From Verrucomicrobiia bacterium (GTDB taxonomy: Bacteria; Verrucomicrobiota; Verrucomicrobiia; Verrucomicrobiales; DEV007): a DNA stretch of 64,000 nt. The DNA lies in NCBI GenBank assembly GCA_030425385.1, contig JAUIAH010000005.1, positions 186,001 to 250,000 on the forward strand, in the 5' to 3' direction. Positions 4,727-19,771 of this stretch are shown piece after piece. Position numbers and translations under genes: made by a program. Position 1 is the stretch's first letter. Each line of letters begins with the position of its first letter. Below the pieces are notes generated by a model. That model worked only from the letters and a program-made list of their open reading frames with translations. It searched no databases and had not been told where the DNA came from.

Positions 4727-4784
4727 CCATCGAAAGGCTGGGCCTCAAATGAACGTGACGATCCAGCAAGCAATGGCATAGTTG

Positions 4785-5339
4785 ATGCTACCCACCATGA
4801 ACGAACGCTCGCATCGCTCCGTTGACGAAACGGCCGATTCTCCAGATATCCCCCAGAATCGGCACGACCTTCGCGTGTTGTCGGGAATCCGGCGCATCAT
4901 CCGGGCGGCAGATCTCTTCTCACGGAGGCTTGCGGCCCAGCATGGGATCACCGTTCCCCAACTGCTCTGCCTCAACCACGTCGTCCACTCCGGCGGCGTC
5001 TCGATCAAGGCGCTCGCTGCCGAGATCTATCTCAGTCCGAGCACGATCGTGGGCATCATCGATCGCCTTGAGACCCGGGGCTTGGTGGAACGCCACCGCT
5101 CGAAACCAGACAAGCGCCTTGTGAAAGTGGTGCCCACCGAGGATGGCCGTCGCCTGGTGGAAACCTCGCCCTCAGCCCTCCACGAGGACCTCGTCGCGGG
5201 TCTCCGCGAACTGTCTTCCACCGATCAGCAACGCATCGCCGATGCAGTGGAACAGCTCGTCACCGTGATGGAGATCGAGCAGGTCGAGGCCGCTCCCATT
5301 CTTGAGACCAAGCCCGAGCTTGATCAGCCACTCGCCTGA
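4785..5339 (+). CDS. MarR-family transcriptional regulator
   Basis: 184-residue DNA-binding protein from ATG 4785 (ATG 4797 is an alternative). The central winged helix-turn-helix is clear: VPQLLCLNHVV, then GGVSIKALAAEIYLSPSTIVGIIDRLETRGLVER (recognition helix about residues 80-95), then a wing with RSKPDKRLVKVVPTEDGR. The Asp-Lys-Arg of the wing is the usual MarR signature. It is divergent from the symporter operon, with a palindromic site in the shared promoter region, so it likely controls that operon and itself. It converges on the TonB receptor gene, 20 bases away. The ligand is unknown. Confidence 0.9.
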   Translation: MLPTMNERSHRSVDETADSPDIPQNRHDLRVLSGIRRIIRAADLFSRRLAAQHGITVPQLLCLNHVVHSGGVSIKALAAEIYLSPSTIVGIIDRLETRGLVERHRSKPDKRLVKVVPTEDGRRLVETSPSALHEDLVAGLRELSSTDQQRIADAVEQLVTVMEIEQVEAAPILETKPELDQPLA

Positions 5340-5359: not shown

Positions 5360-7612
5360 TTAATAGTCTACTTCGGCACCAATCCAGAAAGCACGCCCTT
5401 GATTGGTTCGAGGTCCGCGAGCCAATCGAGAAATCACCTCCCGCTCATCAGTGAGATTGGTCACGCCACCAATCAATTTCCACTGATCATTCAATTGATA
5501 CGATGCCGAGAGATCGACCAATAAGAGATCATCGATCTTGCCCTGACGCGCGTGATCACGGGGCTCGTCCAAATTCAATCCTGTTCCGAAGGTCTCTGAT
5601 TGATACGTCACGTCTAATTGAAGCCCCCATCGCTCAGTCTCCAGGCCGATTCCAGCAGCCAACTGCCACTCGGGAATATACGGAATCTCAGAGCCATCCC
5701 GAGCACCTGCATAGATATCATCACCTCCACCAGCGGCCAAGTCCGAGGCAAACTCGGCACTCGTCCAGGTCGCACTCAAATAAAGGGGCAAGGACCAGTC
5801 GGAACCACTTGCCATGAGCGGATCATATCGCAGGGCTCCCTCGAATCCCCATACCTTGGCTTCCCCTGCATTCGTCTCAGCATTGTTCTGCCCGAAACCT
5901 GCGTCCGTTCCAATCAAGTTGTCGAAATCAGTGTAGAACCAGACAAACTCTCCAAAGAGGCCATTGTCTCTATCGGTACGATACCCTAACTCATAGCCAA
6001 TCGATTCTTCCAAATCCACCCCACTACGAACCACTGATCGTGGCCCCGGCACGGAGATCCCTCGAAAGACACCTCCAAAGAGCTGATCCGATTCTGAAAG
6101 ATCCCATTGGAAACTCACTCCAGGCACGAAATAATCCAGAGTCTCACTCTCGCCACCCGTCCGTGTGTGGGATGAATCACTCGCATAATCGACATAGCGT
6201 TGATCAATGGTTTCGTAGCGTATCCCTGGCGTGATGGAAAAGGCGCCTAGTGAGATCGTATCCTGCAGCCAGAGGGCAATCGCCGTGGTTTCCTGGGCGC
6301 GATTCCCCCCACTGCCCTCTTCTCCGCGGATGAAGTCCACCACTTGACCTGTGTCATCCTGCACGAACTGATCATCCCGCTGATAGCGTCGAATCTCATC
6401 CTGATGAATGCGCCCACCGAAATGCAATTGGTGCTCCACACTTCCAGTAGAGAATTCGTAGTCACCCGCCAACTGAATTCCATAGAGCTTATAGTCACGG
6501 CTATTCGCCCGCACACGGCCCGTTCCGGCTCCACGGCCCTGTAGAAATGCCAATCCAGCAGGATCCAAGAGCGCGCTCCGCACATTGCCAAAGGTGTCCC
6601 CCGTGGCGCCATCCAATTTATACCAGTTTCTTGAGAACTCATTATAGTAGGCCGATGCTTCCAATCGAACCTGATCAGTCGGCTCAATGACATATTTCAA
6701 ATAGGTACGGTGATGCTCCGTCTTCATATTGTCGAAACGCGTCGCTGCGTAGCGCCAATCTGGATGTCGCCGCACATCGCTTTCTGACAACCCGGTGTAG
6801 GATTCATCCGCATCAAAGTCTGTATACCCGTACTTAAACTCAAATCGTTGACGAACGGCCGTGTTTGGTTCCCAGGACAACTTGACCATGGGCTCCATCA
6901 GGGTGAACCCAGTCTCATCCGATCCTCCATAGCCCGTGCCAGGTTGAATACCGCGAAAACCATCCGTGGACTGAGCAAAGATTTCAAACAAATAGCCGAA
7001 ACGGCCCGCATCAGTATCCACCGTGTTACCATGATAGAAATGCCCCAGATGGGTATTGTCCGTTCCGAAGGTGTAGCGTCCATAAACACGCGATTCGTCT
7101 GGGATAGGTGTCGACAAGTAATTGATCACACCACCGGTGGTATGCGGGCCGTATTTCACCTGGCTCGACCCTTTCAAAACCTCAATGCCGCTCATCCGCC
7201 CTGCTCGTGGCGAGTAGTAGGCACCTGGCGCCGAGTACGTCGCGGGAGCGGAGAGTATGCCATCTTCCATGATCGTCGCCTTCTCGGAACGGGTCCCATC
7301 CGCGCCGCGTAACGAGATATTCGGAAAGTTGCCGTAGCCATCCTCCTCACGCACATACACCCCTGGGACGCGGGACAGGATACGATTCACATTGCCATCA
7401 GGGCGGGCGCGGATCTCTTCGGAATCCACGAAGTACCCCGAGCCCTCCAACGCCACCACCTCATCCTTGCTTCCAATGACCGTCATGGTTGACAGCAAGG
7501 GCTGGTTGGGATCCTCAAGAAGGAGAGGCTCCTCCGACCCTTGCCCCCACGAGGGCAGCGCCAGGAGCACGAGGGTTGACGGGACAGTGAACAGAGATTG
7601 GAAGCGCTTCAT
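5360..7612 (-). CDS. TonB-dependent receptor, FecA-like
   Basis: Outer-membrane gated channel for ferric chelates (inference from family and the Fur box). The ATG at 7612 gives 750 residues beginning MKRFQSLF, with a signal peptide ending near residue 24 (SWG-QG). A TonB-box-like stretch LSTMTVIGSKDE follows, then the plug domain (about 45-165: NRILSRVPGVYVREEDGYG, NISLRGADGTRSEKATIMEDG, EVLKGSSQVKYGPHTTGGVIN). The rest is a 22-strand-type barrel ending in a terminal aromatic residue (WIGAEVDY). A longer in-frame start adds 19 residues without signal-peptide character. A/T content looks higher than in the flanking genes. The proteobacterial-style Fur site upstream suggests acquisition by transfer, but this is not proven. 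Confidence 0.93.
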   Translation of the reverse strand: MKRFQSLFTVPSTLVLLALPSWGQGSEEPLLLEDPNQPLLSTMTVIGSKDEVVALEGSGYFVDSEEIRARPDGNVNRILSRVPGVYVREEDGYGNFPNISLRGADGTRSEKATIMEDGILSAPATYSAPGAYYSPRAGRMSGIEVLKGSSQVKYGPHTTGGVINYLSTPIPDESRVYGRYTFGTDNTHLGHFYHGNTVDTDAGRFGYLFEIFAQSTDGFRGIQPGTGYGGSDETGFTLMEPMVKLSWEPNTAVRQRFEFKYGYTDFDADESYTGLSESDVRRHPDWRYAATRFDNMKTEHHRTYLKYVIEPTDQVRLEASAYYNEFSRNWYKLDGATGDTFGNVRSALLDPAGLAFLQGRGAGTGRVRANSRDYKLYGIQLAGDYEFSTGSVEHQLHFGGRIHQDEIRRYQRDDQFVQDDTGQVVDFIRGEEGSGGNRAQETTAIALWLQDTISLGAFSITPGIRYETIDQRYVDYASDSSHTRTGGESETLDYFVPGVSFQWDLSESDQLFGGVFRGISVPGPRSVVRSGVDLEESIGYELGYRTDRDNGLFGEFVWFYTDFDNLIGTDAGFGQNNAETNAGEAKVWGFEGALRYDPLMASGSDWSLPLYLSATWTSAEFASDLAAGGGDDIYAGARDGSEIPYIPEWQLAAGIGLETERWGLQLDVTYQSETFGTGLNLDEPRDHARQGKIDDLLLVDLSASYQLNDQWKLIGGVTNLTDEREVISRLARGPRTNQGRAFWIGAEVDY

Positions 7613-7649
7613 AAGGACAGACACACTGGTCGCGCCGTGTTTAATGCTA

Positions 7650-7666
7650 TTGAGACTCAGTCGCAA
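7650..7666 (-). promoter_or_regulatory. Fur box upstream of the TonB-dependent receptor
   Basis: The sequence TTGAGACTCAGTCGCAA is a 17-bp palindrome with one mismatched pair, in the 7-1-7 geometry of Fur sites. It lies 38-54 bases upstream of the receptor ATG and matches the TGCGAAT/ATTCTCA style of proteobacterial Fur boxes. It implies repression by iron-loaded Fur. No fur gene is in the window. Confidence 0.65.
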
Positions 7667-7710
7667 CAAGAATCTCGGCCACCTTCGCGTTGGCTTGTCG
7701 AGGACGGTAC

Positions 7711-8160: not shown

Positions 8161-9543
8161 CTACGAGGAGAGCGCAATCAAGGTATCGCCTGGTTTGAGG
8201 GCGTTCGTCGCCAATTCCTGCACGCGCTCGGCGGTGACAGGTTTCGTCAAATAGTCATCGGCACCACGTTTCATCGCTTCCACCCCGGCCCGCACATCGT
8301 CGTCCGAGGATACCATATAGATCTTCGCATGCGGGCATTGCTTCTTCAGCCGGGGGATCAAGGCAAGCCCATTGACTTTGGGCATTTGAATGTCGAGAAA
8401 GATTGCCGATACGGCATCATCCGAGATGGCACTGGCTTGGGCTCCGTCTTCCGCCAGCACCGTTTCCCAATCATCCTCAGTCAACGCCTTGGCGATCAAT
8501 CGACGCATGATCGGACAATCATCCACCACGAGTGCTTTCTTCTCCTTTGCCGTCACTTCTCCACGTTGCCGAGCGGTTGAGAGACGCATGATCTTCTCAG
8601 AAGAGCCTGGAGCAATGCGCTCAATCGCTTCCACCACCGGATGTTCCTGAGCACCTTTCATCTCATGGTGCACCTTTAATTCTGCTAGGAAACCTATCAT
8701 GAGAATGCATAGAGCCGTGCCAATGAAGACACAGCCTGCGACGATGAATGATGAGGCGAGGAGATTGAGCAATGCGAGGCCCACCATGCTCGCCCCGAGG
8801 GCGCCTACCGCGATGGCGATCCCACCCATGAAATGCTGGGGACGCTCGCGGAAATTCTTGAGGAAATAGACAGACCACATGTCCATAAATCCCCTGAGAA
8901 AGCGCTTCACGCCGTACTTGCTCACGCCGTGTTGGCGCGCGTGGTGTTCCACTGGAATCTCTGCTGTCTTAAATCCTTGAATACTCCCTAGCGAAGGCAC
9001 CATGCGATGCATTTCACCATACATCGGGAGAGCCTTGACGACGTCGCGGCGGTAACATTTGAATCCACAGTTGTGATCATGCAAATGCACGCCGTTGAGC
9101 TTGCTGAGCATCTTGTTAAAGACTCTGCTAGGGAGCACTTTATGCCAGGGATCGTGCCGCTTCTGTTTCCAGCCACTGACAATGTCAAATCCCTCGGCTA
9201 GTTTCTCCAGGAATCGAGGTATCTCCTTGGGATCGTCCTGCAGGTCAGCGTCGAGGGTGAAGACGATTTCGCCTTCCGCTTTCTCGTATCCCGCGTTGAG
9301 CGCAGCCGCTTTGCCCTGGTTGGTGCGAAACTTGATCGCCTCCACGTGTTCCGGATGCTCCTCAGCCAACGCTTGCACCACAGACCAACTGCTATCGGTG
9401 CTGCCATCATCGATAAAGATGATCTCCCACTCTCGGCTGACGACGTCTGCTTGCTCCTTGATGCGATCAAAGAGTTCACGGAGAGTCGCCTCCTCGTTCA
9501 TGAGAGGGATGAGGAAGGAAAGAAAGGGCAAGTCCGCACGCAT
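8161..9543 (-). CDS. GT2 glycosyltransferase (polyprenyl-phosphate sugar synthase type) fused to a receiver domain
   Basis: 460 residues. The N-terminal GT2 domain (about 6-230) has IIFIDDGSTDSS at 41-52 and TLDADLQDD at 96-104, the nucleotide-sugar and metal motifs of DPM1/ArnC-like synthases. Two membrane helices follow at about 236-260 and 264-288, as in ArnC-type enzymes. A linker leads to a complete receiver domain at about 336-450 with acidic pair D341-D342, phospho-acceptor D384 (FLDIQMPKVNG), the Ser at 412-413 and Lys434 (LTKPV). It probably transfers a sugar from a nucleotide to undecaprenyl phosphate, with activity or partner binding set by phosphorylation (inference). The linked kinase is unknown. 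It lies downstream of the efflux lipoprotein gene, after a 71-base A/T-rich spacer that may hold its own promoter. Confidence 0.9.
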   Translation of the reverse strand: MRADLPFLSFLIPLMNEEATLRELFDRIKEQADVVSREWEIIFIDDGSTDSSWSVVQALAEEHPEHVEAIKFRTNQGKAAALNAGYEKAEGEIVFTLDADLQDDPKEIPRFLEKLAEGFDIVSGWKQKRHDPWHKVLPSRVFNKMLSKLNGVHLHDHNCGFKCYRRDVVKALPMYGEMHRMVPSLGSIQGFKTAEIPVEHHARQHGVSKYGVKRFLRGFMDMWSVYFLKNFRERPQHFMGGIAIAVGALGASMVGLALLNLLASSFIVAGCVFIGTALCILMIGFLAELKVHHEMKGAQEHPVVEAIERIAPGSSEKIMRLSTARQRGEVTAKEKKALVVDDCPIMRRLIAKALTEDDWETVLAEDGAQASAISDDAVSAIFLDIQMPKVNGLALIPRLKKQCPHAKIYMVSSDDDVRAGVEAMKRGADDYLTKPVTAERVQELATNALKPGDTLIALSS

Positions 9544-9600
9544 CTTGTAATTAATATAATTTCAATTAATTTAATAATACAATGCCTGGAAATTGCAACC
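9544..9600 (-). promoter_or_regulatory. A/T-rich promoter region of the GT2-receiver gene
   Basis: The spacer between the efflux lipoprotein stop and the GT2 start is almost pure A/T for about 35 bases (9546-9580), in sharp contrast to both genes. Several TATAAT-like hexamers are possible, so no single -10 can be chosen. The composition suggests a separate promoter for the GT2-receiver gene. Confidence 0.4.
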
Positions 9601-9614
9601 ACATTTGTGTGTCC

Positions 9615-11381
9615 TCAGTCTCCCTGAGGGAAATAGGCCCTGGCGAAGGGGTATGCTTTCGATTTCTGGAGCGGCTGCCGCCGGAAGTTGGGCAGGGTAG
9701 GGGCGCGCTCGACTCCATGAAGCAATTCGCGGGTCTCGGTGGCGCGTTTCCTCGCGGCCAGCATCCGCCGCCGATGCAGGGTCCATTTCTCGTCTGCCCC
9801 TAAAGAGAAAAGCACGGAGAGAGGGCGATAATCTCCCGGCACCTCGGTGGCCACCAGGTTGATGGGCGTTTCTTTCGGCGGCAGTGGAAGTTGCCCACCA
9901 CCCGTCGCCTTGTAGAGCCGCACACTGGCTTTGGCCAAGAGATTGCGGGCGAAGAGGTGTTCCGTCTGAATCTCAAAGTCCTCCTCCACCACTCGAAGGA
10001 GCTTGCTGATGTCGACCAAGCCACTTCTGTAAGCGTCGCGCACCCGACGGCTAGCGTTGGCGCTCGAAAGCACCGCGTCATCGAGCGATTCCCGACGCTG
10101 ATACCCATAGTGGAGGTCGGCGAGAGCGTCGTTCACTTCATTCATCGCCTGATACACCGCGGACTCATACTGGCGAATGGTCTGTTGCAATAAGGCGTCC
10201 TGCTCGGCCACTCGTGCCTTGTCAGCCCCTGCATGGAAGATGCGTTTCGTCAGACCGGCCCCGCCGCCGATCGTCCGCCGCACGAAGGAAGTGACATCGC
10301 CTGTGGCGAGGGATTCGAAAGTGATGGCGCCGGAAAGTCGGAGCTTCGGGTAGAGCTGAGCCGTGGCTTCGCCCACCCGCGCCACCTGTGCCGCGATCCG
10401 GTCTTCCGCCGCCCGGATGTCTGCCCGCGCACGCATGACTTCAGCGGGAATCCCGGCATAGATCGTAGGAGGTGGCGTCGGGACGGGACCGCTCCGTGTG
10501 AGATATTTGGACAAGCCTCGACTCGAGGTGGCGAGAAGCCGCGCGAGCTGGTGGCGGGCTTGCGCCGCCAAACGCTCATACTCCGGAATGAACGCTTCCT
10601 GTCGCCGCAAACGCGCTTCCGACTCCTCCACCTCAAGACGACTCGCCGCGCCGCGCTCCTCTTTCAGCGCGGTGATGCGAGCAACGTCGCGATACGCTTC
10701 GGCGAATTCCACCGCGAGCCGTGCTCGCTCCTCATTGACCCGCATCTCGATGTAGTAGAGACCAATTTCTCCGATAAGGAACACAAGCGTGTCCCGCCAC
10801 GACTCAATCGTCGCCTGAGCCTGCCGATCGGAAGCCTCCACCTTGCGTGCGTGCTCGCCAAAGAGATCCAATTCCCAACCAGCGTCCAATTGCCAGAACT
10901 CCTCCTTCGAGCGCGGCCGCGACGCGCGCACGCGTCCCCGGCTGTCGAATTCCCCAAAGCCACGATCCGTCCGCGCATTGAAATCGGCGTGAGGCCAGTG
11001 CGCGGCCGTGTGCGTGCGCCGTTGTGCGAGGGCCTCATCGATCCGAGCACGGGCCCGATGCAAATCGGGATTGGCCGCGATGAGCCGCGCGATGAGCCGC
11101 TTCATGTCTCCATCACAAAACGCCTCCCACCACACCTGAGTATTCTCCGGCAGGGAGCCATCATGGGCGGGATCATCCACCACTTGAATCTTGTTCTTGC
11201 CCATCGCCAGCTCTACCAGTCTCGAACGCTGCGATTCAGGCAAATGCTCCCAGCTCTCGGGAAGCGCGATCTCTGGGCGTACATACTCAGGACCCACGCT
11301 GCACCCCCCCACGAGGCAAGCCAGGAGGAACGGCAACGTGAGGGCCAAGGATCGCTGCCTTCTAAACTCGTGGCTCGTCAA
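9615..11381 (-). CDS. outer-membrane efflux lipoprotein, TolC/NodT-like
   Basis: 588-residue outer-membrane factor that would form the exit duct of a tripartite exporter. It starts at TTG 11379-11381 and has a lipoprotein signal peptide with lipobox LVGGC at about residues 24-28, followed by SVGPEYVRPE as in NodT-type lipoproteins. Two alpha-hairpin repeats are visible: HRARARIDEALAQRR / DARNARV-like and the second repeat with ARADIRAAEDRIAAQVARVGEATAQLYPKLRLSGAITFES, a family hallmark. The C-terminal 90 residues beyond the efflux domain are not recognised. It is divergent from the membrane fusion protein gene, with which it should pair. The expected RND, ABC or MFS pump is missing. Confidence 0.88.
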   Translation of the reverse strand: MTSHEFRRQRSLALTLPFLLACLVGGCSVGPEYVRPEIALPESWEHLPESQRSRLVELAMGKNKIQVVDDPAHDGSLPENTQVWWEAFCDGDMKRLIARLIAANPDLHRARARIDEALAQRRTHTAAHWPHADFNARTDRGFGEFDSRGRVRASRPRSKEEFWQLDAGWELDLFGEHARKVEASDRQAQATIESWRDTLVFLIGEIGLYYIEMRVNEERARLAVEFAEAYRDVARITALKEERGAASRLEVEESEARLRRQEAFIPEYERLAAQARHQLARLLATSSRGLSKYLTRSGPVPTPPPTIYAGIPAEVMRARADIRAAEDRIAAQVARVGEATAQLYPKLRLSGAITFESLATGDVTSFVRRTIGGGAGLTKRIFHAGADKARVAEQDALLQQTIRQYESAVYQAMNEVNDALADLHYGYQRRESLDDAVLSSANASRRVRDAYRSGLVDISKLLRVVEEDFEIQTEHLFARNLLAKASVRLYKATGGGQLPLPPKETPINLVATEVPGDYRPLSVLFSLGADEKWTLHRRRMLAARKRATETRELLHGVERAPTLPNFRRQPLQKSKAYPFARAYFPQGD

Positions 11382-11448
11382 CTTCCAAATAGATATTGAT
11401 ACTATACCTATTATAATTATCCTGCCTCATCAAAGACTATTTCAAGAA
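11382..11448. promoter_or_regulatory. divergent A/T-rich promoter region
   Basis: This A/T-rich spacer lies between the efflux lipoprotein and the membrane fusion protein. TATAAT occurs at 11412-11417 on the plus strand and, overlapping it on the minus strand, at 11410-11415. It could serve both directions. No convincing -35 element was found. Confidence 0.4.
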
Positions 11449-11512
11449 ATGCTGGAGCATCGCGGTTAGGGAGCTCTGGGCGCACAGGGGGTATGCCATC
11501 GCGGCACTCCTT

Positions 11513-12835
11513 GTGAGCCTCTTTGGGCTCGCCTTGCTCGTGACCGTGCTGATTCCAGGGTATCGCGATTCCTCCAGCCGGATGTACACGTCTGGGCTCG
11601 GTTACGCGGCGGTGAAACGCAAACTGGGCACGCCATTTGATGTCGAGGCCGTGCAGGCGCGGCAGCAGAAGGTGCAGATCCCCTACCTCGGCGAAGGCAT
11701 CGTGGCCGGCGAGCCTCTCCGCGTTCCGGTGGTGCCCATGGCCATGATCAAGGAGGTGCGCGTGACGGAGGGTGATACCGTGAAGAAGGGCGATGTCTTA
11801 GTCATCCTCGATGATACTGAGGCGCAGCGAAACCTTGCTTCTGCCGAGCTGGCAATGGAAACGGCCACTGCTGAACTGGAACGCGTCAAGATCGGCTCTG
11901 CCTACGTGCTCGCCCAGGAACGTCCTGAACACGACAGCATCGAGCTGGAAGGCGCGGCCGAGAATGCCCGGCTACTGGAGGAGAAATTGGCCGCCAATCA
12001 AGACATGTATGCCCGAGGCCTCATCGCGCGAGAACGCGTGTTGGAGGTCGAGCGCCTTCTCCTGGAAGCCCGCACCAAGCTCAAGGAAGCCGAGTATTTC
12101 GCCAAGATGTCGTCCGAAGGCTTCTCTCAGAGCCAGCAGATCGCGATCAACGCGCTCAGAGATGCGCAGCAGGCACTCGCATTTCGTAAGACCCAGGTGG
12201 AGCACCACACCATCCGGGCGCCGGCTGATGGCTTGGTGAGTCTCGTCCTCGTGCGTGAGGGAGAGTACAACCAAGACACCGGCAAACCCGCGCTACTCCT
12301 CACCACGGGCACCTGGTTCGAAGGCTACTTCGACCAAGCCGTGCTCTCGCGGCTCAACGTGGGACAAGCCGCCGAGGTCTTCCTGGAGGCCTTCCCGGGA
12401 AAACGCTGGCAAGCTCAGGTCAGCCGCGTGATTCCGGAAGTCACCTTCGCAGAAGGCGGCCCCGAAATCTCACGGCCACTCCGTCCACGGGGGACCGGTT
12501 CTCCCGAATGGGCCGCCACCTTTCGCGTTCGCTTTGAGATCACTGATGAAGACCGCTCAGGCATCGCTCTTGGTATGACGGGCAATGTTAGGGTGCTGAC
12601 CGGTGGCGATGCCGTGACCGTTCCTCGCGGATCCGTCCTTTCCATCGCTGCCGGCCGCGGCCTTGTCATGGTTCCTAGCGGAGAGTCCTGGGCTGTCCGC
12701 CCCGTGGGCGTTGGGTATGTTGGCGAGACGTGGATTGAAGTCTTTGACTTGGAGGCAGGGACAAAGGTGCTTTCGCGAGGGCATCGTATCCTCAAGGAAG
12801 GAGATAAGATCCGTGTGGAAGACAAGGATTGGTAA
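11513..12835 (+). CDS. membrane fusion protein, HlyD/RND-adaptor family
   Basis: Periplasmic adaptor of a tripartite exporter, about 440 residues from GTG 11513. Recognisable parts are an N-terminal membrane anchor, a first biotinyl-lipoyl half (MIKEVRVTEGDTVKKGDVLVILDD), a long coiled-coil hairpin (about residues 100-225), and the second lipoyl half (HHTIRAPADGLVSLVLVREGEY). A beta-barrel segment follows, with GQAAEVFLEAFPGKRWQAQV, then a membrane-proximal domain. The start is doubtful: coding-like sequence in the same frame continues upstream (SIAVRELWAHRGYAIAALL) without any ATG, GTG or TTG before a TAA at 11408-11410, and no Shine-Dalgarno precedes the GTG. See findings. The 3' end overlaps the next gene. 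Confidence 0.88.
   Translation: MSLFGLALLVTVLIPGYRDSSSRMYTSGLGYAAVKRKLGTPFDVEAVQARQQKVQIPYLGEGIVAGEPLRVPVVPMAMIKEVRVTEGDTVKKGDVLVILDDTEAQRNLASAELAMETATAELERVKIGSAYVLAQERPEHDSIELEGAAENARLLEEKLAANQDMYARGLIARERVLEVERLLLEARTKLKEAEYFAKMSSEGFSQSQQIAINALRDAQQALAFRKTQVEHHTIRAPADGLVSLVLVREGEYNQDTGKPALLLTTGTWFEGYFDQAVLSRLNVGQAAEVFLEAFPGKRWQAQVSRVIPEVTFAEGGPEISRPLRPRGTGSPEWAATFRVRFEITDEDRSGIALGMTGNVRVLTGGDAVTVPRGSVLSIAAGRGLVMVPSGESWAVRPVGVGYVGETWIEVFDLEAGTKVLSRGHRILKEGDKIRVEDKDW
12798..12803 (+). promoter_or_regulatory. ribosome-binding site AAGGAG for the TPR membrane protein
   Basis: AAGGAG lies inside the end of the membrane fusion gene, nine bases before GTG 12813. It selects this start over the much longer in-frame extension to 12663 and shows translational coupling of the two genes. 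Confidence 0.6.
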
Positions 12836-14225
12836 AGTGAATGGACGCCTAAGTCAGCTTGGGCGCTGGCTATGGGGATGGATCCAAGCGCCGAATCTTC
12901 CAGTGCTCGCTGGGGCAGGCATCCTCACACTAGGCCTATTAATGGTCTTACTGAGTCTCAAAGCCCCCTGGTATCGCGTCCCCGCCGACATTGATGCCGC
13001 AGGCGAGTTGGTTTACGCGACCGCTGTTTCCGAAAAGCCTTTGAAAGCGATCTTCGCGCTGGGACTTCTTACGGGAATCGGCATCGCCCTCTATCATTGG
13101 TTCAAACCCATCCGTCGTGGGCAGTCACTATTCTCGATTGGAGTGCTCGGGTTTCTTATCGGCCTGATCTTTGCCCATCTAGTCGTGGTCGATGAAGCAG
13201 CCCTTTCCCATCAGGCGGCCTGGGTCGTGTCCCAACACGATGGCCTGACATGGCTCGGAGGTGACATCTACACCGCTCGGGAATATGAACCCGCTGGAGG
13301 AGGCTTGGATCTGATGATCAAGGACCCTCCCCAGATTCTCGGTGTCGTCCCTCTCCCGCATCGGTCCGCGGACTTGGCTATCCTCCACGATTGGTTCGAA
13401 TGGATGGGCTTGGGCTCCCCGTTCACGACCTTCAAAGTCAAGGGTTGGGGATTTCTCATGGTAGGTAGCATCTTTGTCATGGTCGGCGCGATGGCGACAC
13501 GCCGTTCTCAGAGTGACGACCAACTGTCTCCGGCACTCGTGAGCTTCGGGCTCCGTGCCGCTGGCCTCCCTGTGCTGCTCTTTCTCAGCTTTGTCGGCAC
13601 CCGCGCCTGGCTAGCGGCCGGAGCCCTGCAAGATGCCCGCGCACTCGGCGACAATGCCCGTTACGCGGAAGCCGCCCAACGCATTGAGCGTGCCATGAAG
13701 CACCTGCCCTGCATTGGATACGATACTGGCTTACTCCTTCAGTTAGGCCTTTATCACTATCAAAGCCGCCAGATCACGCCCGCCGCCCGCTACTTCCGAG
13801 CGGTGCGCCTGGAGAGCGCCAACCTCAAAACCCAAGCGGAGGCCATCTACGCTTCTCTCACTAACGCCTCCCACGAAGCCATCCGGCGTGAAGCCCATCG
13901 CGCCCTCTTTCGTCTAGGGATCATCGATTTCAATTCAGGTCAGGAAACGGAAGCGTTGCGCCTGACAGAAGCCTTCATCCAGGCATTTCCCGCTCTCCCC
14001 AAGGCACGTTACGTTCGTTTCCTCCTCGCCGTGCGTCTCGGCGAAGTCGACGTGGCCTATCAATGTCACCGTGACCTTTACACCATAGCGAAAGGAATCG
14101 GTCTGGGCGAGAAGCGCGCCTATCTCTCGTCGGGACACCAGCACTTGGGAGAACTCGCCTTTTCCCAAGGCGATTACCATGAGGCCTGGCAGCAATTCGT
14201 CTACCGCATCCAATTGGAGAAATGA
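12813..14225 (+). CDS. polytopic inner-membrane protein with periplasmic TPR-like domain
   Basis: 470-residue protein of unrecognised family. Hydrophobic helices occur near the N-terminus (LPVLAGAGILTLGLLMVLLS), then IFALGLLTGIGIALYHW, SIGVLGFLIGLIFAHLVVV, WGFLMVGSIFVMVGAMA and LRAAGLPVLLFLSFVG, so about five. The C-terminal 190 residues are helical repeats of TPR type (DNARYAEAAQRIERAMKHLP, QITPAARYFRAVRLES, SGQETEALRLTEAFIQAFP, AFSQGDYHEAWQQFVYRI). It sits between the adaptor and the GT39-like enzyme, overlapping both (23 bases and ATGA). The context suggests a scaffold or the inner-membrane component of the export machinery (inference). Confidence 0.75.
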   Translation: MWKTRIGKVNGRLSQLGRWLWGWIQAPNLPVLAGAGILTLGLLMVLLSLKAPWYRVPADIDAAGELVYATAVSEKPLKAIFALGLLTGIGIALYHWFKPIRRGQSLFSIGVLGFLIGLIFAHLVVVDEAALSHQAAWVVSQHDGLTWLGGDIYTAREYEPAGGGLDLMIKDPPQILGVVPLPHRSADLAILHDWFEWMGLGSPFTTFKVKGWGFLMVGSIFVMVGAMATRRSQSDDQLSPALVSFGLRAAGLPVLLFLSFVGTRAWLAAGALQDARALGDNARYAEAAQRIERAMKHLPCIGYDTGLLLQLGLYHYQSRQITPAARYFRAVRLESANLKTQAEAIYASLTNASHEAIRREAHRALFRLGIIDFNSGQETEALRLTEAFIQAFPALPKARYVRFLLAVRLGEVDVAYQCHRDLYTIAKGIGLGEKRAYLSSGHQHLGELAFSQGDYHEAWQQFVYRIQLEK

Positions 14226-17200
14226 GACGTTGGCCCCTCCCCCTGGTCCTGGCCTGCGGGGCCATCGCATGGCTCACCGTCACCTGGCTCTTCCCAAATC
14301 CTACCGAACAGCATCCCTTTCACTTTCCTCAAGAAGCCTCGTGGATCACCGCCGCCAAGGATGGCGAAGAACCCCAAGCCTCAGCAGGCTTTCGACTGGA
14401 TTTCCAAGTGCCTCCCATCGCGATCGAGCGTGCGTGGATCGCGGTGGCGGCCGACTCCGGCGTGGAAGTGATCGTCAATGGCAACCCCGTGGTCCGCTGG
14501 GACCTCTATCGGCCTACGCGCCCGTTTCAAGCAGGCCATTCCCGCTACGGCCAGAAACTGCGCTATGCCCCCTCCGCCCTTTCCCTCAACTACCCTCGTG
14601 AATTCCAATGGTCCGACAATGCGAACTGGAAGCTCCCCCTCTTCGTCGATATCACGAGCCAACTCATCACCGGCCATCGCAACGCTCTTTGCGTCATCGC
14701 TCACGCTCGCCACGAAGAACCCGCTTTCCGTCTCACGGGCGAGATCCTCCTAAGCAGTGGGCGGCGCATTCCCCTGCACAGCAATCCCACGTGGCGATCT
14801 ATCAAAACACCCGAAACTCTCTTCGATCGCGAATGGCAGAACCAGCGGTATCTCGCAGATTCCTGGCCCTTTGCTAGACTATCGAAGCCACGCCCCGGAC
14901 AAGCATGGCGCTTCCCGCCTCCGGGTGTCTTCGAACTGCCCTTCGCCGGACAATGGCTGCAAGTGCCTATGGATGGGTCTCGGCACACCTTTGCCACCTC
15001 TTGGACACTTGATCAACCTTGCGATAAGGCTTTTGTCAGGGTAGCGAGCGATGCCGATTATCTCCTCAAAGTGAATGGCACTGTTCTCCGACCGCTCGGC
15101 GGTGCCAAGCGGCATCCGGCGGAAGGCGAATGGATCGCTCGCCCACTGAGCCGGCGCATTCTCTCCGTGCCCCCAGAACTTCTCGATCCCGGAGAAGGCG
15201 CGCAGAACTATCTTGGCGAAGAGTTTCTTTCTCCGAGGCACGGAGACCCCACAGAGAATGAGTATGCCGGGGGAAGGGATCCACTCGATCTCTCGCAAGA
15301 TAGTTTCACGAGTGAGCAACGCGGCAATCTCCTCACGAAAGCAGGCGAATCGAAACCTGCACGCCCCACCGAGAACGATGGGACGGGCGAAGCGATCCGA
15401 GGGCGAAGTCCTGTGCAAACGGCGCACGCGCGAGGAGCGCCCAGCGTGACGGGATTCGAAGTCACGCATTGGTTGAAACGTGGGGAGAATCAGATTGAGA
15501 TCATCACCCTCCCCCCCGTCGAAGGCTTACTCTACCAGCGTGCGCGGCGCATGCGATTGGCGCTCGATGCGGGCGTCGTCTCGCACGGCGCCCCGCAACT
15601 AGCCTTGAGCGAGGGCACCTCCTGGACCCGTGATGGGCAACCCGCGGCTACCAGTCGAGCTGCGGTGCCTGGCGTGATGAAACATGAGTTTCGCCGGATC
15701 GCTCAGCCTGAAGCTCCAGGGAGGTGGTTCCCCATGGCCATCATGCTCCTGGCCCTCTTCACCGGCCACCGCTGGCCCCGAGAACTCGCCACGCTTATCC
15801 TTGTGTTAGGAGTAGTCAGCGGGTGCGGGCTCTTGCTCGAGGTGACCATGCGGGAGCGTTCCGAAGAGTTGTGGATGACAGGATTCCCAGCCTGGCGCGG
15901 CGCAGTGCTTGTGCTAGGTGCGCTCACCGCTTTCGCTGTTTCCCAGATCAAGAAAGGGAACACACAGGCAGATGGACGCGGGTCCGCCTGGTATCGCGTG
16001 GTTTTGTTAGGTGTTCTGGTGCTTGCATTCGTCGCCCGCGCCTACGAACTGGATATCCAAGCCTTGGATGATGACGAATACGCCTCCGTACAAGCCACCC
16101 TGTCCATCGCGAAGAAGGGCGTACCAGAGATCGCTCCGGGCATCTACTACACACGCGGTCCATTCTATCACTATGCCGCTTCGCTTTTCGTCATCCTGTT
16201 TGGCGAGAACATTTGGGCCCTTCGTCTTCCCGCGATCCTCGCTGGGGTTCTGAGCGTGTTCTTCACCTATTTGCTAGGTTCTCGCCTTCTGGAAAGCCGC
16301 GCCATGGGCATCGCTGCATCCCTTCTTGTGGCTCTCAATCCCTTCTGCATCTTCACCTCGCACATCGCTCGCTTCTACCAGCAACAACAGACCCTCACCG
16401 TAGCAACGGTCTATTTCTTCATCAGCGGCTTTGTCCAACACGGCAAGCCCTGGCATCGCGCAGCCGCGGTGATCTGCGCAGGTCTCGCCGTGCTCAGTCA
16501 AGAGATCAGCCTCCTCATCGCCGTTCCTTTCGGCTTCTGTTATGCCCTCATGGCACGCCCCGCTCCGCTCCGCAATGAGATCAAGCTGGCTCTCGTCGTG
16601 TGTCTGACGGGTGGCGTTGTCTTTCTCAATCTCCTTGTCTTCAAAGTCGTGTGCCTCACGCGCCTGGACGGGATCTCCCCCAACGTGGAGTCCACCTTGA
16701 AGCCGCATTTCTACGAGCCGCTCAATTTCCTTTCAATGTGGCTGGGCTATTCTCGCCTGCACGTCTTCCTCGGCGTGTTCTCATTGATCGGAATGTTAGC
16801 AGGCTTCCGCAAACGCGAGCCCGGCATGATCGCCGTCACCTTCTTCCTCGTGATTGGCATCGTTGGCACGGTCTTGTTAGTCACCGCCACCGGTTTCCGC
16901 TACCAGTATTCAGTGCTGCCCCTGTGGGTGGTGACCGCGGCCTATGGGATCCGCGTGGTTTCCGCGCAAGCTTGTGGTGCCCACGCGCGCCCCGCCCTCG
17001 TTACCTTAGGCTGCACCATCATCGGTTTTGGGATTCTCAGCTATAGCCCTTGGCGGATCCCCCCATCCTATCACTTGCGCATCCTCGGCGATTCCTCAGG
17101 TGCCACCAGCTATGTGCGCGCCCATCTGCGAGAGGGCGATGCGGTGGCCATCACGGAACCGCATCCACACGCGGCTTTGTTAGAAACGGGTCGAGCCGAC

Positions 17201-17539
17201 TACGACATCGCCGTCCCCATCCTCTATGACTTTGTCTACCGCGACGCTCAAGGTCGTCTCATCGATCGCAACGGAGGTGCCGAGTCCATGGGCCGACTGG
17301 GCACCCTGCAACGCGCCATGGCGCAGCATGATCGCATCTGGATCCTCCTCAATCGCGAGAAATTTCGCACGCGCGGGCGCAATCTTCGGTGGGAGTATCC
17401 GGGCGCTCGGTTTGACCTCTTTGTGAGGAACAATTGTCGCCTCACCTACCGAGCCTACCTCTGGGACGTCTACCTCTGGGATCGGGCGACCGGGAAACTC
17501 GACGGGTTCCGCGCCGAACCAGAAGGCTGGAACGATTAG
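14222..17539 (+). CDS. large GT39/ArnT-like membrane glycosyltransferase with N-terminal beta-sandwich region
   Basis: 1105 residues. A signal-anchor helix (about 5-24) is followed by roughly 480 residues predicted to face the periplasm, with two sugar-binding-like beta-sandwich units (VEVIVNGNPVVRWDLY and YLLKVNGTVLRPL resemble carbohydrate-binding lobes). From about residue 500 onward there are about 12 membrane helices with the GT-C features of the PMT/ArnT group: ALDDDEYAS with D616-E619 in the first luminal loop, the YTRGPFYHY loop, and SHIARFYQQQQT. Such enzymes transfer sugar from polyprenyl phosphate donors to lipid or protein acceptors on the periplasmic side. The GT2 enzyme in the same locus could make that donor. 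Residues about 325-411 look like an inserted repeat (see findings). ATGA overlap with the preceding gene. Confidence 0.85.
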   Translation: MRRWPLPLVLACGAIAWLTVTWLFPNPTEQHPFHFPQEASWITAAKDGEEPQASAGFRLDFQVPPIAIERAWIAVAADSGVEVIVNGNPVVRWDLYRPTRPFQAGHSRYGQKLRYAPSALSLNYPREFQWSDNANWKLPLFVDITSQLITGHRNALCVIAHARHEEPAFRLTGEILLSSGRRIPLHSNPTWRSIKTPETLFDREWQNQRYLADSWPFARLSKPRPGQAWRFPPPGVFELPFAGQWLQVPMDGSRHTFATSWTLDQPCDKAFVRVASDADYLLKVNGTVLRPLGGAKRHPAEGEWIARPLSRRILSVPPELLDPGEGAQNYLGEEFLSPRHGDPTENEYAGGRDPLDLSQDSFTSEQRGNLLTKAGESKPARPTENDGTGEAIRGRSPVQTAHARGAPSVTGFEVTHWLKRGENQIEIITLPPVEGLLYQRARRMRLALDAGVVSHGAPQLALSEGTSWTRDGQPAATSRAAVPGVMKHEFRRIAQPEAPGRWFPMAIMLLALFTGHRWPRELATLILVLGVVSGCGLLLEVTMRERSEELWMTGFPAWRGAVLVLGALTAFAVSQIKKGNTQADGRGSAWYRVVLLGVLVLAFVARAYELDIQALDDDEYASVQATLSIAKKGVPEIAPGIYYTRGPFYHYAASLFVILFGENIWALRLPAILAGVLSVFFTYLLGSRLLESRAMGIAASLLVALNPFCIFTSHIARFYQQQQTLTVATVYFFISGFVQHGKPWHRAAAVICAGLAVLSQEISLLIAVPFGFCYALMARPAPLRNEIKLALVVCLTGGVVFLNLLVFKVVCLTRLDGISPNVESTLKPHFYEPLNFLSMWLGYSRLHVFLGVFSLIGMLAGFRKREPGMIAVTFFLVIGIVGTVLLVTATGFRYQYSVLPLWVVTAAYGIRVVSAQACGAHARPALVTLGCTIIGFGILSYSPWRIPPSYHLRILGDSSGATSYVRAHLREGDAVAITEPHPHAALLETGRADYDIAVPILYDFVYRDAQGRLIDRNGGAESMGRLGTLQRAMAQHDRIWILLNREKFRTRGRNLRWEYPGARFDLFVRNNCRLTYRAYLWDVYLWDRATGKLDGFRAEPEGWND

Positions 17540-17555
17540 AACATTGCTCAGAGAA

Positions 17556-18521
17556 TCAAGAGACCTGAGTAACCGGGTCGGAAATGTCCGCTGGCTCCTC
17601 CGATCCCCCCAATCGCCTCCCCAGGGCAACCGTAGCGCCCAGCACGAGACACTCCACCATCATCTGCACCGCGCGGAAGAGTAGCGCCGCCGCTGCCGCC
17701 GTTTCGCCAAGCCCAAAGGGCTGGAACATCACGTAGCACGCCCCTTCCCGCACCCCCAAACCCGCTGGGACACCAATGGCTAGCATACCTGCGAACCACG
17801 CCACCGCGTTGACTCCCGTCGCGGCAAAGAAGCCAGGGGCTGCCTCACCTGCCAGCCCCCGAAAGGTGAGGTAGAAACCCAGGCCAAAGAAGAAGTTAAG
17901 CGCCGTGTATTCGAACAACGCGCGGGCAGCAATGGCGGGTCGAAGTTGCCCCTGGAAGAGCGCCCGAACCTTGTCGCCGAATCGCCACCACATCACGGCG
18001 ATCCCAAGCAATCCTAACAGAACACCACCGACGATCCAGAACACTTGCGTCCCTGGCAGCCACTTTTCCACGAGATCGAGGCCCACACCAGAAATCACCA
18101 GTCCTGTAAGGGCCACGGTGCCCCAGGCAAGCGCTGTGATTGCCAACTCCACTGTCAGACTCAGCGCGGCCAAGCTCTTACCCACCCCAAGGCGCCGCGC
18201 TTCGACCACTCGCGAGGCGTAACCCCAGATGCCCCCTGGCAGATACCGCATGGCCTCACAGCGAATCCAGATCGCTGCGCTTTGGGAACGCGAGAGGGCG
18301 CCATCCGCGCCCAGTGACCGGAGAACCAGCCCCCAAACCGAGGCATTGAACGGCAAATAGAGAAAAGCCACCACACCTGCTGCCACGACATAACGCCAGT
18401 CCGCCTCGGCTAGCAGGCGCACCAATTCATGGCGCATCTGATAGATGGCCAAGACCATGGTGATGAGAACGACCGCCAAGGCGAGCCGTTTCAACCAGGG
18501 ACCGATGGATGCCCCTTTCAC
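17556..18521 (-). CDS. lysylphosphatidylglycerol synthase TM region / flippase-like membrane protein
   Basis: 321-residue polytopic protein of the UPF0104/AglD-like family with about 8 helices. The start GTG 18519-18521 overlaps the stop of the upstream glycosyltransferase as GTGA. A longer frame to 18632 would run deep into that gene and is rejected. Family marks are SVWGLVLRSLG, RYLPGGIWGYASRVVEARRLG (the conserved P-GG-W segment) and VPAGLGVREGA near the C-terminus. Proteins of this group are associated with lipid or glycolipid modification or flipping. No catalytic transferase domain is attached. It converges with the GT39-like gene and is co-transcribed with the GT4 gene. Confidence 0.85.
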   Translation of the reverse strand: MKGASIGPWLKRLALAVVLITMVLAIYQMRHELVRLLAEADWRYVVAAGVVAFLYLPFNASVWGLVLRSLGADGALSRSQSAAIWIRCEAMRYLPGGIWGYASRVVEARRLGVGKSLAALSLTVELAITALAWGTVALTGLVISGVGLDLVEKWLPGTQVFWIVGGVLLGLLGIAVMWWRFGDKVRALFQGQLRPAIAARALFEYTALNFFFGLGFYLTFRGLAGEAAPGFFAATGVNAVAWFAGMLAIGVPAGLGVREGACYVMFQPFGLGETAAAAALLFRAVQMMVECLVLGATVALGRRLGGSEEPADISDPVTQVS

Positions 18522-19771
18522 GCCGCTTGGGTCGAGGGCGAGGGTTTCGCGGCGCCCACTTTCTCGCCTAACAAAAGCTCTTCTTTCCCGGCGGCAAAGA
18601 CTTTCACTAATGCCAAGATGATCCGGTCCCAATCGAAATGGCTCCTCGCAAACGCATACCCTGCTTCCGCCAAGCGCCGCCGTTCCTCTGGGTCGGCGAG
18701 AAGCCGATTCACAGCCTCCGCTAGGGCGGCTGCATTCTTCTCCTCAACGAGCACTCCAGTCTCCCCATCCTTGATCACGTCCACGATACCACCGACGCCG
18801 CACGCCACGACGGGACGCTTGTTTGCCAAGGCCTCCACGAGCACGACCCCAAGGCCTTCTGTATCGCCGCGACGATCATGGATGCTTGGATGCACATAGA
18901 GGTCCGCTGTCCGATAAAGCTCACCCAGACGTTCATTGGAGACAAAACCCGCAAACTCGACGTGCTCCTCCAACCCTTTCTCCGCGACCAACCGCTGCAC
19001 CGCCGCTTTCTGATCGCCTTCTCCAGTGATCACCAGCTTCACTGGCTGTTCTGATAGGATCTTTGGCAAGGCATCAACCAAGTAGGGCAATCCCTTCCGC
19101 TCAATGATCCGACCACACGTTAAGAGCAGCTTGGGCCCCTCCTCAGAGACCAGGGTGCTGGGACGCGCCTCATACGCCGGCACCGTCGATCCATAGGGCA
19201 GCACGTGGATATCAAGATCCTCACCCGCGAGATCCGTGATCTGCTTGCGCGTGTGCGAGCTGTTGCACGTGATCTCGTCGGTATGTCGCAAGAGCCAACG
19301 CAGCACTGCTGAAAGCGGCTTACTCCCTCGCACAATAGCCAACTCAGCCCCATGACAGGTCGACACGATCTTCGTTCCCGTGAGACGGGCGGGAAACCAC
19401 GCCATCAATCCATGGGGAAACGGCCAATGCACGTTGATGACATCTGGGCGTTCTTTGAGTAAATGCCAGAAAGTCGCAAGCAACCCCGAAAGGATATAGG
19501 GAATGGTCAAGAGCTTAAGCCACTTGGATTGTGAAACCTTGTTAGGCGCACCCGAATCATGGGTGAGCATCTCCCAAGAGGCAGGGGCATAGCGGAACCG
19601 CTTCACCGGCACGCCATCAATACGGTGGCTCTTCCGACCACGAAACGCAGGAGCCAAGACGGTCACCTCATGCCCGAAGCCACGAAGCCGCTTCGCCGTC
19701 TCGCGCAACCACGGGACCTGAGCGTCATCGTCATGGAGTGGGAAGGTGGAACCAAGAATCACGACTTTCAT
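18518..19771 (-). CDS. GT4-family glycosyltransferase
   Basis: 417-residue GT-B fold transferase of the cytosolic membrane face. The N-terminal Rossmann half opens MKVVILGSTFPLHDDDAQVP, typical of GT4 enzymes with a flexible glycine-poor loop. The C-terminal half has LLTCGRIIERKGLPYLVDALP, KLVITGEGDQ, VEFAGFVSNERLGELYRTADLYVHPS, and the donor-binding EGLGVVLVEALA with its E-x7-E pair. It probably extends a lipid-linked oligosaccharide or glycolipid. Coupled by GTGA to the flippase-like gene. Donor and acceptor are unknown. Confidence 0.92.
   Translation of the reverse strand: MKVVILGSTFPLHDDDAQVPWLRETAKRLRGFGHEVTVLAPAFRGRKSHRIDGVPVKRFRYAPASWEMLTHDSGAPNKVSQSKWLKLLTIPYILSGLLATFWHLLKERPDVINVHWPFPHGLMAWFPARLTGTKIVSTCHGAELAIVRGSKPLSAVLRWLLRHTDEITCNSSHTRKQITDLAGEDLDIHVLPYGSTVPAYEARPSTLVSEEGPKLLLTCGRIIERKGLPYLVDALPKILSEQPVKLVITGEGDQKAAVQRLVAEKGLEEHVEFAGFVSNERLGELYRTADLYVHPSIHDRRGDTEGLGVVLVEALANKRPVVACGVGGIVDVIKDGETGVLVEEKNAAALAEAVNRLLADPEERRRLAEAGYAFARSHFDWDRIILALVKVFAAGKEELLLGEKVGAAKPSPSTQAA

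Follow-up and report, generated by a model that had tools for sequence, protein, structure and literature searches.

What would a bacterium do with a gene cluster in which putative enzymes for making and transferring an activated sugar lie beside an adaptor and an outer-membrane duct, with no pump between them? The question is raised by a locus in a 64,000-nucleotide stretch of DNA (the window) from a Verrucomicrobiia bacterium with an 8.0 Mb genome, a member of the order that includes Rubritalea, Haloferula and Roseibacillus. A sequence-only reading of the window had proposed that five of its genes form a glycan transfer and export system under phosphorylation control. All five genes were found to be open at the coordinates claimed, and the families to which they had been assigned were backed by Pfam and NCBIfam profiles (Glycos_transf_2 and Response_reg, OEP/NodT, HlyD_D23/HlyD_3, a weak TPR match, and PMT_2). 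Two lie on the reverse strand: a GT2 polyprenyl-phosphate-sugar synthase of the ArnC/GtrB class with a C-terminal receiver domain (8161..9543) and a NodT/TolC-type outer-membrane efflux lipoprotein (OEP; 9615..11381). On the forward strand are an HlyD-type membrane fusion protein (MFP; 11513..12835), a five-helix inner-membrane protein with a C-terminal TPR domain (12813..14225) and a GT39-like GT-C glycosyltransferase of 1105 aa (14222..17539). The ATGA overlap described for the last two genes is present at 14222-14225. The 23-base overlap described for the MFP and TPR genes stands if the GTG at 12813 is the start, but the in-frame GTG at 12837 would leave a 1-base gap in its place. Directly downstream, on the reverse strand, are two genes that had gone unmentioned, one for an LPG_synthase_TM/UPF0104 flippase-like membrane protein (LPG_TM; 17556..18632; PF03706, 3e-13) and one for a GT4 glycosyltransferase (18518..19771; PF00534, 6e-45). 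Their linkage in relatives makes them part of the conserved unit, which thus comprises about seven genes and is conserved in Verrucomicrobiota and Planctomycetota. A TonB-dependent siderophore-type receptor gene (5360-7669, reverse strand) and a MarR-type regulator gene (4782-5339, forward strand) also adjoin the cluster in the window; no conserved linkage of this pair was noted in relatives.

The core of the unit is an obligatory trio of MFP, TPR and GT39 genes. Within the order, the TPR protein was detected in 21 of 387 genomes and the MFP in 22, the two sets being identical except for one MFP at a contig edge (genome G490). The proteins therefore co-occur in 21 of 22 genomes (Fisher p=9e-34), and all three genes are adjacent wherever the contig permits. 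Using a GT39 alignment as the query over 84,980 species genomes, 36 loci were recovered, and all of those with a group named in the record are from Verrucomicrobiota or Planctomycetota. Cultured species among the carriers include Roseibacillus persicicus, Haloferula rosea and Rubritalea profundi. The trio was complete in 31/31 of the loci with a contig of sufficient reach; the others are L051, where the contig ends before the MFP gene, and L070, L076, L078 and L084, which are cut within the GT39 gene. Conservation across two phyla is far beyond chance. The sequence-only reading had named separation of these three genes as grounds for giving it up, and since they proved inseparable both in the order and in Planctomycetota, those grounds fall away. 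Its broader expectation, that the trio is linked to the GT2-receiver and efflux genes, was borne out in part. The genes are linked in relatives, many of which (L052, L056, L058 and L077 among them) carry GT2-GT4-LPG_TM-MFP-TPR-GT39 on a single strand and the OEP gene in divergent orientation, but no OEP gene was adjacent to the trio in the Planctomycetota loci examined, and the receiver fusion is found only in some members (L049, L067, L072, L075, L083 and a second GT2 copy in the window genome). A literature search for the gene set returned nothing relevant.

The two enzymes at the ends of the five-gene stretch make a plausible donor-transferase pair. In the GT2 protein (PF00535, 8e-34; PF00072, 6e-23), the catalytic acidic motifs DDG and DAD are kept, and its closest match among solved structures is ArnC (9bhc; E 6e-44 over residues 6-284). 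Hydropathy places a transmembrane segment at 266-284, with a second one falling under the threshold used. The score against the ArnC equivalog NF007986 is 174 bits, below the 529-bit cut-off, and judged by these comparisons the enzyme is of the same class as ArnC rather than ArnC itself. Its receiver domain retains D341/D342, the phospho-acceptor D384, S412/S413 and K434. At the other end, the GT39-like protein (PF13231, 4.5e-14, 53 bits against a cut-off of 26) is laid out as a first transmembrane segment, a tandem beta-sandwich carbohydrate-binding-like region at about 31-490 and a core at about 580-1096. The acidic catalytic motif expected of such an enzyme is represented by DDDE at 616-619; it lies in the core's first periplasmic loop and is invariant in the alignments. 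Foldseek matched the protein to ArnT (2.7e-9) and a rhamnosidase (1.3e-9). In structural superpositions the core resembled ArnT (VIA Z 24.5, rmsd 4.3-4.7 over 441-458 residues), oligosaccharyltransferase (VIA Z 26.3) and also PMT, and the N-terminal 460-480 or so residues resembled beta-sandwich domains from alpha-L-rhamnosidases and a lectin whose structure was determined with rhamnose. Because the rmsd over the whole N-terminal span is high (14-16 A) and residues 292-405 are modelled with low confidence, this fold match holds for the domains and not for their arrangement. By its predicted structure, then, the protein combines a GT-C core of the ArnT/oligosaccharyltransferase kind with an N-terminal region that resembles rhamnosidases and lectins. 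Given that the GT2 resembles ArnC and the GT39 core resembles ArnT, the earlier proposal of donor synthesis followed by periplasmic transfer is a sound one.

The five helices attributed to the TPR protein were recovered as five predicted transmembrane segments, both by hydropathy and in an AF2 model with a pLDDT of 89.5. An invariant loop containing WLGGD and the C-terminal TPR domain are both placed in the periplasm by the predicted topology. Foldseek searches with the model returned only generic TPR matches above E 1e-3 and no homologue of the membrane part, an absence that is not proof of a new fold. A search of PDB sequences with the TPR profile gave weak matches only, which were taken as chance, and no relative of the protein was detected in viral contigs.

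The MFP gene belongs to a cluster-specific family that carries the motifs GSAYVLAQERPE and GGPEISRPLRPRGTGSPEWAATF. PF16576 and PF13437 score above their cut-offs, and TIGR01730 scores 88.9 bits, just under its cut-off of 94.9. Homology in the alignments extends some 23 codons beyond the listed GTG on its 5' side, with the match beginning at window position 11444, and the true start probably lies near there, judging from this conservation. No ATG, GTG or TTG start codon was found in the MFP frame between 11414 and 11513; this upstream homology could reflect a rare start codon or an error in the sequence. The OEP has a lipobox (LVGGC) and scores 252 bits against TIGR01845 (cut-off 210). It is one of 13 NodT-type matches in the window genome, the cluster OEP and 12 others, and no close paralogue of the MFP family was found in that genome. 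Of the components of a tripartite efflux system, the locus thus supplies an HlyD-type adaptor and a TolC/NodT-type outer-membrane protein but no co-encoded inner-membrane pump, and no RND, ABC or MFS pump gene was found in any of the conserved runs covered by the analysis. The sequence-only reading had put forward the TPR protein or the GT39 enzyme as a putative stand-in for the pump.

The missing pump can be read in ways that do not invoke glycan export. One is that the MFP and TPR proteins serve the GT39 enzyme as a scaffold in the periplasm and nothing leaves the cell, with envelope lipids, LPS or proteins being glycosylated in place in the manner of ArnT or PMT. The likeness of the GT39 core to ArnT, PMT and oligosaccharyltransferase fits such a role, as does the planctomycetal trio with no OEP gene beside it. 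However, the OEP gene is divergent from, or adjoins, the operon in most Verrucomicrobiales loci, which points to an outer-membrane duct, and we consider the scaffold role unlikely. Another is that adaptor and OEP form an ordinary efflux pair for a small glycosylated compound and borrow an RND, ABC or MFS pump whose gene lies elsewhere, with the glycan genes serving to modify either the compound or the envelope. Pumps are part of the well-studied MFP-TolC systems, and the many NodT-type proteins in the genome make sharing possible. Nevertheless, the MFP family is cluster-specific and occurs apart from the TPR and GT39 genes only at contig edges, and the conserved runs hold no pump gene; a borrowed pump, which the sequence-only reading had named as its second ground for being given up, therefore seems to us quite unlikely.

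Regulatory genes found in this analysis beside the cluster in relatives give the fused receiver a context. The flanks encode an H-NOX protein, a PAS-HisKA-HATPase-receiver hybrid kinase, a small Hpt protein and an NtrC-type sigma-54 activator. An H-NOX gene is present in 20/21 cluster genomes compared with 64/366 others of the order (p=1.3e-13, an optimistic value in that related genomes were counted as independent). By coordinates, it lies within about 10 kb of the cluster on the same contig in 13 cluster genomes, and in five of the remaining ones it is on another contig of a fragmented assembly. In the planctomycetal loci L059, L064, L066 and L068 the H-NOX, kinase, NtrC and Hpt genes are adjacent to the cluster, the order in the last three being H-NOX, kinase, REC-HD, NtrC, Hpt, MFP, TPR, GT39. 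REC-HD and REC-HDOD proteins are also encoded beside the relay in planctomycetal clusters (L066:3986-4963, L053:127-1221), and the REC-HD protein recalls the HnoD-type degenerate HD-GYP regulators of Vibrio and Shewanella. For the flanking kinase and NtrC genes, a PEP-CTERM/exosortase regulator pair (PrsK/PrsR) was also considered, an assignment that was dropped once the H-NOX and Hpt genes were identified. In the H-NOX proteins of the window genome and its relatives, the heme His and the YxSxR motif are kept (HNOB profile PF07700, 7e-39 for the window genome's protein). The distal-pocket Tyr is absent, with V, A or L at position R+5, which we take to correspond to position 140 of the Tt protein (Tt-Y140). 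This Tyr marks O2-binding H-NOX proteins, those lacking it being of the NO type (PMC8738867). By the distal-Tyr rule the proteins at hand would thus match the NO rather than the O2 type. Among the publications on Planctomycetes and Verrucomicrobia retrieved by our search, none dealt with H-NOX.

For the organism of the window itself, the link to nitric oxide comes from genome content and a paralogous gene set rather than from adjacency, and it is invisible from the window. The genome has a single H-NOX gene, located on contig C22 and not on the contig of the window cluster. Beside it are genes for a hybrid kinase, a REC-Hpt protein, a second GT2-receiver, a GT4, an LPG_TM and an NtrC-type protein. 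The GT4 gene there (L086:16509-17758) is split into two ORFs of 88 and 328 aa in different frames with a 4-base overlap, which may reflect a frameshift or a sequencing error. Phosphorylation of the receiver, as proposed in the sequence-only reading, gains context because such a relay adjoins the cluster in relatives and, in the window genome, accompanies the second GT2-receiver gene. Upstream of that second gene is a perfect sigma-54 site, TGGCACGACCGTTGCA, and no sigma-54 promoter was found upstream of the window cluster's own genes, including GT2-receiver. Across loci, sigma-54-like sites precede GT2 in 9/19 cases compared with 21/328 for other genes (p=4e-6, likewise optimistic because related loci were treated as independent and gene starts are approximate). 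Strong sigma-54-like sites (11/12) were also observed at L072:10772 and L072:13662, ahead of two uncharacterised genes (901 and 393 aa) that closely follow the cluster; these are possible further regulon members. At other verrucomicrobial loci (L131, L132 and L137), H-NOX, hybrid kinase and NtrC genes lie beside unrelated genes. Since such modules exist without the glycan cluster they are portable, which suggests an NO-to-sigma-54 unit with several targets. That the module and the glycan cluster are mere neighbours and nitric-oxide control is coincidental is nonetheless improbable, for although the same module stands beside other genes in the order, H-NOX accompanies nearly every cluster genome, often at close range, in varied gene orders and in two phyla, and sigma-54 sites are enriched before GT2.

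The reading we favour, to which we give an even chance, is that the locus encodes a conserved system for assembling a glycan in the periplasm and exporting it, and that a nitric-oxide phosphorelay sets its output. In this scheme, the GT2 enzyme would make a polyprenyl-phosphate sugar, and the GT4 enzyme a lipid-linked acceptor or second building block. LPG_TM, the flippase candidate, would help the lipid-linked sugar cross the inner membrane. The GT39 enzyme would then add sugars on the periplasmic face while holding its glycan with the lectin-like N-terminal region. The TPR protein may dock this enzyme to the HlyD adaptor, which would hand the product to the TolC-like duct formed by the OEP. 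Since the glycan would be completed on the far side of the inner membrane, a classical pump would not be needed, and this would explain the missing gene. On the regulatory side, H-NOX would sense NO and modulate the hybrid kinase, with phosphate passing via Hpt to the NtrC-type activator, which in relatives would switch on the GT2 operon through sigma-54. Where receiver and GT2 are fused, the relay might also phosphorylate the GT2 receiver itself as a second output. What we infer are the nature of the product, its transport with no pump and receiver phosphorylation. More tentatively, the cluster could represent a new class of glycan secretion, in which a GT-C enzyme with a lectin-like arm is TPR-docked to an HlyD adaptor feeding a pump-free TolC-type duct, and a receiver-GT2 fusion puts sugar supply under direct, post-translational control of the H-NOX relay; we think this possible, though rather doubtful.

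Should the favoured export reading be correct, the cluster would provide a further exit route for glycans from the diderm cell beside the Wzx/Wzy, ABC and synthase routes, and a candidate function for a gene set shared by Planctomycetota and Verrucomicrobiota, two phyla with poorly understood surface glycans. Co-location with an NO sensor indicates that cells may tune surface-sugar production to nitric oxide, which would tie the two together outside Proteobacteria. Through the receiver-GT2 fusion, a two-component system would act directly on an enzyme of glycan biosynthesis, which would be unusual.

Parts of the proposed machinery have counterparts in known systems. The ArnC-ArnT pathway for lipid A aminoarabinose and GtrB-type three-component glycosylation likewise combine an ArnC-like GT2 donor synthase with an ArnT-like GT-C enzyme that uses a polyprenyl-phosphate sugar, as the GT39 enzyme would. 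The present cluster adds the adaptor, TPR protein, OEP, GT4 and LPG_TM; moreover, its GT-C enzyme has a lectin-like extension and its GT2 can carry a receiver. The mycobacterial Emb/Aft arabinosyltransferases, structural matches at VIA Z 16-21, are GT-C enzymes with sugar-binding domains as well and use a polyprenyl-phosphate sugar, as is predicted here, but they work without an adaptor or outer-membrane duct, their sugar-binding folds are placed differently and sequence identity is about 11%. For control, the closest parallel is in Vibrio fischeri, where HnoX inhibits the hybrid kinase HahK and the signal travels via an Hpt step (SypF/LuxU) to SypG, the activator of syp polysaccharide production (PMC12369376). 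There, as would be the case here, an H-NOX, a hybrid kinase, an Hpt step and a direct transcriptional activator serve a polysaccharide cluster, and it is by this analogy that NO would modulate a relay with GT2 outputs. In some of the species studied here, unlike in syp control, a receiver is part of the enzyme that would make the donor. The syp structural genes also form a cluster of another kind. For export, an HlyD/TolC route for a glycosyltransferase has been modelled in cyanobacterial cellulose export by XcsA, the HlyD-like XcsB and TolC, and is unproven according to its authors (PMC12430437). That model likewise couples an HlyD adaptor and a TolC-like duct to a glycosyltransferase without a classical pump, but XcsA is a processive GT2 that extrudes its chain through the inner membrane, whereas the candidate here is a periplasm-facing GT-C enzyme. 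Finally, in alginate secretion by Alg44, AlgK and AlgE, an HlyD-like protein, a TPR protein and an outer-membrane duct serve a glycan. In the alginate system the synthase is a processive GT2 and the duct a beta-barrel porin, while the cluster described here would use a GT-C enzyme and a TolC-type duct.
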